Shown here: piece by piece, positions 36,350 to 42,799 of the stretch
Layout of the letters: the number at the start of each line of letters is the position of its first letter
How positions within the stretch are numbered: position 1 is the first letter of the stretch
NCBI GenBank assembly: GCA_021292105.1
Contig: CM037869.1
Location: forward strand, 4,807,001 to 4,871,000
DNA length: 64,000 nt
From: Anadara kagoshimensis
Taxonomy: Eukaryota; Mollusca; Bivalvia; Arcoida; Arcidae
Direction: 5' to 3'
Program-made: the position numbers and the translations under genes
The notes under the pieces: generated by a model
Database searches by the model: none
Told to the model about the DNA's origin: nothing
Seen by the model: only the letters and a program-made list of their open reading frames with translations

Positions 36350-36368
36350 CGGCGGAGATGTGTATAAA

Positions 36369-36383
36369 TAGGTACTGAAAATG
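36369..36383 (+). repeat. Left terminal inverted repeat
   Basis: TAGGTACTGAAAATG, preceded by the target copy GTATAAA (36362-36368). The match to the right end is exact over 15 bp and stops there, apart from an ATTT in both after one base. Confidence 0.88.
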
Positions 36384-36986
36384 CATTTGAAATACAGCAG
36401 GAAACGGTTATTTTCACATATAAAGCTGTGTATTTGGCCTTTTTTACTTTCAAGTTGTTGTTGATACATTAGATGTAATTTAATAAAATATATATGAAAT
36501 ACAAGTTTAGACTTTGTTCTTTCAGTCTGTATGTTTTATATTTTCAAAGGATTTTAAAATATGTTAATTGTTATGCATTTTTAAATGCATGCTACAACAG
36601 GATTATCGATGTTTTACTTCATTTTCAGCGAAATTTCTCGAACGCGTTTGTGGGTTGCGCCGTTTAATGCCTAGTCGCATTTGCACCATGGGTCTAACAG
36701 AGGTATAAGAGTTACCTCCCGTTTGTTGATACTATAAGCTAAAAGCCAGTATAAAAAAATTACGGAAATTTTGAGGGAAAATACTTAAATTTTCGATTTT
36801 AAAATGTTCTCCAAGTTCAAAGACAATTTTTGTTAACTTTTCATTAACCGATTTTCACGATCTTGGTACCAAATTAAACTACAAAATGTAAACTATTTGA
36901 AAACGAAAGTAGTTTTGAATGCGAAACTATGGCGTAGATGCGACTCTGCATATAACGCGCATGCCCCGTTTAGCCTTCTTGCTAAA
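36384..36986 (+). promoter_or_regulatory. 5' non-coding region of the transposon gene
   Basis: About 600 bp between the left end and the start codon. No clear TATA box is placed at the usual distance; the stretch just before the ATG (36900-36986) is richer in CpG (gcgactctgcatataacgcg) than its surroundings and may be the promoter. This is inference. Confidence 0.35.
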
Positions 36987-39900
36987 ATGGCGACCTCCGC
37001 GAAAAGCATCCCAACCTTTACTGTGGAGTCTATTGAAGAATATTTAGGTAAGAAATGAGAATTAATGTGTTGATCGGCGAATTTATACTTTGCAATTTTG
37101 TTTTATCTAGTCTTTCAGTCATTGTTTTATAATTTAATTAATAAGTTTAGCTTTTGCAAACACAAACTCGAACTGGTATCTCAGCCGTGATTTAATTTTA
37201 AAGTTTTAAAATTTGCTTTTCATATTTTTTTCCCGTTTTGTTTCATTCAATTACTGCTATATATGTTTCTTATTTTTATTTGATTTTAAATTGCGAAATT
37301 GTGAAATTATTATCTTTATTTTTAGTTTCATTGTATTGAGTTTAAACATTTTAATTTTTATTCTGATTTCTGTTTATTTTGAATACGTTGCTTTGTGGTT
37401 TCTTTTATGTCTCTTTCAGATTTTCCATGACCATGACACATTTGACTAGTTTGTTTAGCCGTAATTATAAGTATATAACAGACAAGTAATGTATACAGTA
37501 TCAAGTTATAACTTATTAGTAATATAATTTCCTACATGTGTGTGTGTGTGTGGGCATACGCTGCCGAGTGCAATTTTTGTTTTGTTTTCCACAATCTTGC
37601 TAACATTGCTTAAGTAAAAATAATATGTTCCAAGTCCCTTATTTGTTTTAAAAATCTGTTGTATGTGTGCATGCTTCCGTTTATGCATGTATTTGTGATC
37701 CATGGCCAATATAATTATGGTCTTGATATTTTTTCAGATGATGACATCTACAGACAGTTATGTGGAGTGTTTTTAAGGAGTGGGAAAGGGCGTAGGCCAG
37801 ATGTACCAAAACTTGACATAACAAATTCACTGCTTCTGCAGATGTACATGATGAAGATCAAGCATGATAAACCTTGGGTTTTCATTGAAGAATGCCTTTC
37901 AAAATTGTATCCAAAATATCAGAAACAACGATTTAGAGCACTTGTGGAGAAAGCACAACAAAATCTTCAACAAGTTACATCACACGATTTACAAAGTTTT
38001 TTAGCTAGTAAAATTGACCTTAATTTTATTGGCCCAGTTTGTGAACAGTTGGGGATAGGTAGACAAACTTTATTGGAATGTGTTGACTTAAAATCAACTT
38101 TGAAAGGGCAATCTGTTCAAATCAGTAATGAACTGATTCTTGAAATTGAAAAATTCAGAACACATGAAAACATTTCATTTGATGTAGCATACATGTGGTA
38201 CACTATTTTGGCCAAGAAGTCAAACTATTCTTTAGTAACTGAAAGGGAAATGAAAAGTAAACTAACCAGCATTAAAAATAAATTTATTTCTTTGAATAAA
38301 AGTAAAGCAAAGTATCCAGAAAAACTTCAGCTTTTCTTGTCTGCAGTGGCAGATATTCAGACACAATCTATCAACACAGATATTGACACCAGTACCAGTT
38401 ACACTGAAATAGCTTCTTTTCCTATTGGTCTTGTTAATAAAATGATACAAACAGATAATCTTGGATATACTAGTAGTATTAATACGGATCAGTTTTCATT
38501 GAAATCTGAAAAACAATTAAAATTGAAGTCTGAAAACTTGAAAGCCGAAAATGAGAAACTTTCATTGGAAGTTGAGGCATTGTCAGAGGTTTTAAGTAAC
38601 AAAAATAAGGACATTGAGCGTTATCATTCAGATAAAAATGAAAATGATGTGAAACTGGAAAAACTTGAAATTAAAGTGTCTAAAATGAAAACCGAGATTA
38701 ATAATTTGAAAGGTGAATTAAAAAAAATTAAGTCGAAAAAAAATAAGCTGAAACAACAACATAATGAAGATAAAGTGAAAGTTAAAGATTCGAATGATGT
38801 AATTATCACATTAAAAGAGAAACTTAAGCTTTCCCAGACTTCGCTATCATACTTTAAATCAAAATCAGAAAAAAATTATACAGAAAAGTGTAAACTGAAC
38901 AAAGAATTAAATGCAAAAATTATGGAACTTGATTTTGCAAATTCAAGTGAACTTGAAAGTGAAAAAAGGTTTGTAAAAACCAGAGATAAAGGTAGAACTT
39001 TTTCAAACAATATTCGAAAATGTGTTATAGAGCTACAGGGAGAAGCTTCTGTTTCAGCTAAGAATTGCAGTAAAGTCATTCATACAGTTGCAAAACATAT
39101 ATTTGAAGTAGACATTCCTTTATCGGATCTTCCGACTGAAAAGTCTGCATTAAATATAGCTGACGAAGGTCATTTTTTGAGCAAATTTCAAGTTGGTGAA
39201 AACCTTTTGAAGTCTAAACACTGGAATTTACATTCGGATGGTACCACCCGAGATGACAAGAAAATTATGGGCCATCAGGTAACGGTCGATACTGGAGAAA
39301 ACTTTTCGGTAGGGTTCACACCAATAGCTATTGAAGACAGTAGCACCCTTCTAGATGTCGCCATTCATATGTTGCAAGAATTATCTGAAATTCAGGATGA
39401 CACTAACCCACAAAATATTCAAACTGACATGTATAATAAACTGCTGGCTCTCATGTCTGATAGAGCAGCTGTCAATAAAAAATTTAATTTAGACATAAAT
39501 GATGACAGAAAACTGAAACTTGGTACAAATGAGGACATGCACTTTCTCTACTGTAATGCACATTTTTTATTGGGTTTATCTAGTGAATGTACAAAACAAT
39601 TGAAATTAGTAGAAAATAAAATGGTTGAACAACTCGGTCATAAACTTGGACGTGCTCAGTCGAAAAAATTCTGTCATTTCAAAGGGTCTGAAACGAACAC
39701 AGGCAGAGTAATTAGGACCGGAAGTGACTGTCTTGGACCAAGGGGGGACGAGAAAAGTGGTTGTAGGACTGAATGGTTAGCTTTCTGTACAGAAATAGGT
39801 GAACTATCACATGTCGGAAGCTTTCGTATGAATAGATTCAACAACTTTTTCAAAGGGGCTGCAGGTTTATACCATCATAGAAAACACATTGTTAAGTTTC

Positions 39901-41438: not shown

Positions 41439-41463
41439 ATAAAATGCATACTTGTTTAATAAA
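41438..41463 (+). promoter_or_regulatory. Two poly-A signals after the transposase gene
   Basis: AATAAA at 41438-41443 overlaps the stop codon, and a second lies at 41458-41463. Either could end the transcript; the overlap with the stop implies an extremely short 3' UTR. Confidence 0.6.
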
Positions 41464-42449
41464 GGTAATGATAACTTATTGGCTGTACAAAAACGATAGT
41501 GGTACAATTGGGTAATTCGGCATTCTCGTATGTTTTCTCAGATTTTTTGAATTTTGTCACAGTTTGGTACTAAAGTTCTTGCTTGCTTGATTAGATAACA
41601 TACTCCTTCATAAAGAATGAATGATGTAAGGTTTAAACTACTTGTATTTCAAATTTCAGTGAGATATCTTGAAAACTTAAAAAGTTATGAACATTTTAAT
41701 ATACCATATTTTAAGCTATTTTTCTCGATTTTTGTTCATTTTGCAAATTGGCCCTACATGGGATGTTCAGGTGACTATATTTTTATACACAGAAGTGCTG
41801 TAAGTCTTAAAAAAATTGGATGCACTATCTGGAAGTAGCTTAAAGGTTTAGTATTTAAGTCAAACATGTTTTGTTTATGGTAACAGAATTACCAGGTGCT
41901 AAATATGGCATTTGGGGCAATTTTTTGCAGCAGAATCAGGCTGACATAGGGTATTTAGCAGCCAAGAAAACCATAATTTTAAGCTATTTTATACCTGGAT
42001 GTTATTTTTCTGGCAAAATAACTTTCTTATAATACAAAAATTAGAAAGTTGAGTCCCTAAAAATAAATGCTAGAAAATTACAACTTTGGTTTCATGGTAC
42101 CGAAGGCCAATTGTGCTGGAAAAATTGCACGGCATGCCATATTTGATGTCTGGTATTTTTATGTATGGTCTATCTAGAAGGGTATGTGTGCTTGTTTTTA
42201 TGAATATAGTTGGTATATAACAGTTTTAAGAAAGATCAGTGTTCCATCTACAATGATAATGTAGTTCTGATAGCTCAAAAATGTCAAAAATCTTCATTTT
42301 TCGGTGCAAAAAGGTCATCAAAATAAAGATTTTAACATATCTCGACAACTGCTTGAGGTACAGAGCTAATTTTGGTGTCGTTTTGCAGGTTTTTGGTAGC
42401 TTTATTTAAAAAAATGGCCAAAATCACTCTATTTTTTCATTGAAAAAAT
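41464..42449. other. 3' non-coding region of the transposon
   Basis: About 1 kb with no gene. It ends in the right inverted repeat. The frame at 41617-41838 has no recognisable content. Confidence 0.6.
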
Positions 42450-42464
42450 CATTTTCAGTACCTA
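42450..42464 (-). repeat. Right terminal inverted repeat
   Basis: CATTTTCAGTACCTA followed by the target copy GTATAAA (42465-42471). Confidence 0.88.
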
Positions 42465-42799
42465 GTATAAACAAGTGTCAGTTCGACTGTTCATATCGCT
42501 AAAACCAACATAGATTGGTCATGTGCAGGAGCGGGGGTGCTACTTTTCAAGTAACGCTCTGGCAACACAGGCTCGGGTTTATTACGATCAAGAACACTGA
42601 ACGAATATTTTTTCATAAAAGTGTCACTCAGCACTGGCAGATTATAAAAATAATCATCATCATCTTCGGGAAGATCACTCTGATGCATCGGAACAAAAAA
42701 TTGTGGGAACGATTGAAAACGTGGTTGCACATAAATGTCAAAATATTCAAAGATCTCCCTTGAAAAATTATTATTTAAGTTAATTTGGATTCTCCACCA
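42465..42799 (-). pseudogene. Gypsy leader and start of gag, upstream of the DNA transposon
   Basis: Begins right after the 5' LTR with TGGTGGAGAATCC at the primer-binding position. The minus frame then reads MHQSDLPEDDDDYFYNLPVL and a Pro-rich RNKPEPVLPERYL, coding-like, to about 42490. A one-base shift then leads, through the 7-bp target sequence, into the gag body at 36361. The primer-binding tRNA is not identified. Confidence 0.6.

Follow-up and report, generated by a model that had tools for sequence, protein, structure and literature searches.

A complete 6.1-kb DNA transposon in Anadara kagoshimensis with a transposase of predicted hAT-like fold, possibly from an undescribed superfamily

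Limits and insertion site of the element

We analyzed a 64,000-nucleotide stretch of the genome of the bivalve Anadara kagoshimensis (assembly GCA_021292105.1, contig CM037869.1, positions 4,807,001 to 4,871,000; hereafter the window, whose positions are used as numbering throughout), in which a 6096 bp-length element lies at 36369–42464. Its left terminal inverted repeat, TAGGTACTGAAAATG (36369–36383, plus strand), has an exact complement at 42450–42464 (minus strand), and these two ends are the only exact occurrences of the 15-bp pattern in the window. Extended to 20 bp, the ends match at 18 of 20 positions, with background similarity beyond. A target-site duplication, GTATAAA, flanks the ends at 36362–36368 and 42465–42471, and inspection showed that the flanking bases do not allow a duplication of 8 bp. 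An earlier, sequence-only reading of this DNA had claimed both the exact inverted ends and the exact 7-bp direct repeat, which we confirmed; the span that it gave, 36362–42471, has the right outer limits but counts the duplications into the element.

An estimate from single-base composition gave 3e-4 as the chance, over the whole window, of 15-bp inverted ends no more than 10 kb apart together with a 7-bp duplication. A scan of the window for exact 13-bp inverted pairs at most 15 kb apart and flanked by a 6–10-bp duplication revealed four pairs, of which two carry 7 bp (the 6096-bp element and a second element at 24440–30516) and the other two 6 bp. No second DNA-level copy of the 6096-bp element was found within the window, the element ends contained no convincing subterminal repeat pattern, and no related DNA was found in viral contig or genome contig collections, neither of which is an animal collection.

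When the two flanks were joined, one minus-strand frame was open across the junction for 132 codons and then closed. The sequence-only reading had described this as an uninterrupted Gypsy gag frame. It is indeed open across the joined flanks; however, only 15 of its 132 codons precede the junction, and neither of the two gag-region frames matched a Pfam model at E 0.1, so that the gag label is without Pfam support. Downstream of the insertion, protease and reverse transcriptase/RNase H pieces matched Pfam models, every one below its cut-off. Because of the short frame before the junction and these sub-cut-off pieces, the insertion is placed close to the start of a minus-strand Gypsy-like element that has decayed.

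The spliced gene and its predicted transposase

Between the ends lies a gene of two exons with a GT-AG intron and 1253 codons uninterrupted by a stop. The predicted exon 1 (36987–37047, plus strand) comprises codons 1–20 and the first base of codon 21; exon 2 (37738–41438, plus strand) is an open frame with no internal stop and includes the stop codon. Alignments of relatives, such as P0026 and P0058, span the predicted splice junction, which bears out the earlier claim of one intact spliced gene. The sequence-only reading had also called the element young, and the open frame would be compatible with a young age. The exon-2 protein matched no Pfam family above its cut-off.

The conservation of residues was counted over 142 rows with a core of more than 350 residues. 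The first predicted catalytic residue, D521 (39237–39239), sits in the first strand and is conserved in 139 of the 140 rows with a residue at this position; D595 (39459–39461), directly after the fourth strand, is conserved in 141 of 142. A C626xxH629 motif follows (39552–39563; C in 141 of 142 rows, H in all 142), and E904 (40386–40388), in the helix after an all-helical insertion, is conserved in 129 of the 131 rows with a residue there, 11 rows being gapped. All three residues and the motif are on the plus strand. The hAT-type order D, D, CxxH, E is present in the protein, and structure prediction indicates an RNase H fold in which, as in Hermes, an all-helical insertion precedes the last acidic residue. 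Hermes ranked first among the solved structures listed, and among the viral proteins listed the top match was a hAT protein of a Pandoravirus. P-element and MuDR chains were absent among the matches listed, which carries no weight against them.

Outside the core, an AlphaFold model (mean pLDDT, the predicted local distance difference test, 81.6) gave two N-terminal three-helix modules (model residues 30–77 and 131–188; 37824–38300, plus strand), followed by a long coiled coil (38508–38960, plus strand; helices 258–408), which was also matched by coiled coils in a PDB profile search. The first module showed weak similarity to the second module of relatives (BLAST E 0.10 and 0.26). In the model, these modules are likely to form the DNA-binding part. 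A small beta domain is predicted at the C terminus (41172–41381, plus strand; model strands 775–844), and in the element's own protein this domain gave chance-level model matches alone.

On this evidence, we consider it highly probable that a complete DNA transposon occupies 36369–42464 and that its single gene encodes a DDE transposase of predicted hAT-like fold. Its nature as an autonomous cut-and-paste element, as the sequence-only reading had proposed, is well supported by its inverted ends and duplication, by a gene that is open, and by the conserved DDE residues and predicted fold of the protein. Several points weigh against this interpretation. Sequence identity to Hermes is approximately 10%, and whole-model template modelling scores (TM-scores) to Hermes are low, at 0.20–0.28 by query and 0.32–0.47 by target. 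No hAT or other transposase Pfam model was found in any of 90 proteins of the family or 13 of their cores (scans described below), and when profiles were compared with the neighbouring hAT-like fragment, the hhalign probability was 0.3% and hidden Markov model scores did not exceed 0.4 bits. A fold in common with hAT is no proof of activity, and the roles given to both ends of the protein are guesses from the model. Moreover, one copy with ends was seen, and thus the ends and the 7-bp length rest on one insertion.

The protein family and its rank

Three overlapping protein searches returned 73, 76, and 87 proteins, 213 different ones in all. Most of their records carry no source name; the named subset includes molluscs (Gigantopelta, Nucella, Littorina, Elysia, Plakobranchus, and Solemya), echinoderms (Anneissia, Amphiura, and Acanthaster), the nemertean Lineus, the annelid Lamellibrachia, the sea spider Nymphon, and Hydra. 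The closest relative, P0001, is 57% identical over the core. Two groups without a shared protein (28 and 26 rows) were joined by profile comparison with a probability of 100% (E 2e-115, 865 columns). In a tree of 120 thinned rows, a 55-row clade stood apart from the rest with support of 100/100 and a branch length of 1.32, and four rows, including Amphiura, were placed between the two. The element's protein paired with P0001 (100/98). A second member of the family, broken and 24% identical, lies at 61233–63999 on the minus strand and runs off the window edge; it keeps TDE, SDRA, and CGLH motifs and groups with P0136 and P0139, outside the 55-row clade (100/99). By their tree positions, the two members in this one window are deeply separated. 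Sequence comparison indicates that the family is old and deeply split, and it is likely to be an unnamed lineage.

For some relatives, the annotation is that of an ordinary predicted gene, which would suit a domesticated host gene with ends and duplication around it by chance. We regard this as very improbable, given the matched ends and duplication around the gene (chance approximately 3e-4) inside a decayed retroelement, together with the diverged, broken member in the same window. The host-gene explanation was rejected because the gene is flanked by inverted ends.

At the C terminus, the link between the two clades was weak (hhalign 89%, E 2.4e-6, 70 columns). The Spin/Ssty model was found at this end in 9 of 52 distant-group proteins (best E 3.1e-9) and the Tudor model in 4 of 52; P0078 and P0082 are examples. 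The distant-group transposases may possibly carry a chromatin-reader fold with a role in target choice.

A link to known transposases was sought by several searches. Pfam scans covered 42 proteins at E 0.1 and 52 at E 0.01 (four common to both, 90 different) as well as 13 cores at E 1. The matches comprised coiled-coil models, Spin/Ssty and Tudor-type models, and weak matches in single proteins, namely Myb_DNA-bind_7 (E 0.033) and HTH_NDX (E 0.013); the hAT C-terminal dimerisation domain PF05699 was absent from all 90 proteins and 13 cores. An iterated profile search scored 6771 candidates and gave 87 hits, all with E ≤2.7e-40 and none between that value and E 1. It did not converge with hAT transposases among these candidates; as a candidate is scored only if it shares exact words, distant hAT proteins may have gone unscored. 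Two of the 87 hits bear the precomputed Pfam labels PF24161 and PF14282. A profile of the 13 cores gave two chance-level matches to PDB sequences (E 0.44 and 1.2), and another PDB profile search, in which the coiled coil dominates the best 60 of 397 matches, was uninformative on the core. No description of this transposase family was found among the literature titles and abstract openings listed, with subscription papers and Repbase Reports outside this scope.

Features of known superfamilies were drawn from PMC3706591, PMC10045372, PMC4455052, PMC4168063, and PMC12730594. The sequence-only reading had proposed an undescribed superfamily from the 7-bp duplication and the TAGG ends. This argument failed: duplications of 7–8 bp occur in Galileo of the P superfamily (PMC4168063), 7 bp in Kyakuja, and 5, 6, and 7 bp in hAT5, hAT6, and hAT7, respectively (PMC12730594), 6–7 bp in Dada (PMC3706591), and 7 bp again in the second element of the window. 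Duplication length was therefore rejected as a superfamily marker, and because these groups share 7 bp, the rank must come from the protein. On grounds other than the ends, an undescribed lineage is possible, as the searches made gave no sequence link to known transposase families.

The C/DxxH motif between the second D and the last E is common to hAT, P, MuDR, Kolobok, and Dada (PMC3706591). Dada, with a DDE transposase carrying this motif and duplications that include the 7 bp seen here, had been flagged as needing a check. The exact 15-bp inverted ends argue against it, since Dada-U6 and Dada-U1 have no terminal inverted repeats, and so does an insertion outside small RNA genes: Dada elements with clear ends lie in multicopy small RNA genes, whereas the one insertion seen here lies within a Gypsy-like element. 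Rfam gave a single match in the window, a marginal tRNA at 4216–4288 (29.6 bits against a cut-off of 29). Dada also differs from the element's protein in carrying CCCC and CCHC fingers. Galileo resembles the element in duplication length but has a GTANTAC target and long inverted repeats, and no P-type Pfam model was found in the family. Kyakuja (KDZ) shares the 7 bp, yet its termini are CA..TG without inverted repeats, against TAGG..CCTA with 15-bp inverted repeats here; IS3EU likewise starts and ends with TA, but has a 6-bp duplication and TAYGG ends rather than 7 bp and TAGGT. Given these differences, and as no Pfam model of any such transposase appeared in the 90 proteins or 13 cores, we consider membership in Dada, P, Kyakuja/Zisupton, or IS3EU improbable. 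For the IS256 family (ISCth4) and eukaryotic MuDR, the match was much weaker than for Hermes, and no MuDR Pfam model was found.

The closest likeness is to hAT, with which the element shares a predicted RNase H core whose last Glu is preceded by an all-helical insertion, a CxxH motif following the second Asp, and short inverted ends. The usual hAT duplication is 8 bp, against 7 bp in this one insertion, although hAT7 has 7 bp. The element further differs from hAT in its approximately 10% identity, its TAGGT ends, the lack of any matched hAT Pfam domain or BED finger, and its protein of 1253 amino acids, for which two three-helix modules at the N terminus and a coiled coil are predicted. It may therefore be a very divergent hAT member with 7-bp duplications, perhaps filed in Repbase or Dfam as hAT or unclassified DNA and deserving no separate rank. 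The Hermes and Pandoravirus matches, the C/DxxH motif, and the range of duplications in hAT5 to hAT7 argue for this, whereas the missing PF05699 and the gap between the 87 profile hits and E 1 among exact-word candidates argue against it; we place its probability somewhat short of an even chance.

Alternatively, within the C/DxxH group the family may form an undescribed lineage of its own at superfamily level, sister to hAT, for which the chance is just short of even. Consistent with this, no convergence with a named superfamily appeared in the Pfam, PDB-sequence, and iterated profile searches, the family is split deeply by the 55-row clade, and the modelled protein has predicted tandem N-terminal modules and a coiled coil; however, the predicted structure strongly favours hAT, and duplication length and ends are not diagnostic. 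In its full form, this proposal describes an animal superfamily that makes 7-bp duplications and has ancient clades spanning Hydra, molluscs, and echinoderms; its transposase would join a hAT-like DDE core to tandem three-helix DNA-binding modules, a long coiled coil, and a tail resembling Tudor. We judge this description nearly as probable as not. With a hAT-like predicted fold but no sequence link to hAT in the searches made, we do not assign the element to hAT, although it most likely works like a hAT element.

Proposed transposition and neighbouring elements

In hAT-style excision, a hairpin is formed on the flanking DNA. In the mechanism proposed here, the inverted ends would be bound by the N-terminal three-helix modules of the modelled protein, with at least two subunits pairing through the coiled coil, and the DDE site would cut the element free in hAT fashion, leaving hairpins on the flanking DNA. 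The freed element would then be joined to a new site that is cut with a 7-bp stagger, and gap repair would leave the 7-bp duplication. The small C-terminal beta domain may contact chromatin during this process.

Recognition of the family gives a likely function to more than 200 proteins in the databases, most of which, where they have names, are called hypothetical or uncharacterised, and would help to annotate repeats in the genomes of molluscs and other invertebrates. Should the lineage be distinct from hAT, it would add a branch to the C/DxxH transposases and offer a way to test the evolution of hAT-type excision. Since the gene of this copy is open and its ends are known, it is well suited to activity assays.

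The second complete DNA transposon of the window (24440–30516, 6077 bp; 24433–30523 with its duplications) resembles the 6096-bp element in its 6.1-kb length, inverted ends, and 7-bp duplication, here GACAAAC. It differs in its perfect 31-bp CAGAG ends, a broken gene with a weak PF05699 match (E 0.0053, below cut-off), and no detectable protein similarity to the 6096-bp element. A paralogous empty site of this 6077-bp element was found at 42877–42883 in a repeat copy at 42801–43040, where the matched halves overlap by exactly 7 bp. Near the left end of this hAT-like element, tandem blocks at 24506–25475 recur with a spacing of approximately 350 bp and are 79–95% alike.

Further features lie elsewhere in the window. 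The tRNA match at 4216–4288 is possibly a tRNA-derived repeat. Open frames at 48210–50185 match QRICH1 and a tyrosine recombinase (Phage_integrase, just below cut-off) and possibly belong to a Crypton-type or DIRS-type element. At 50310–50397, 6-bp GATATC repeats flank an 88-bp near-palindrome with 13-bp inverted ends, which may be a small hairpin element.
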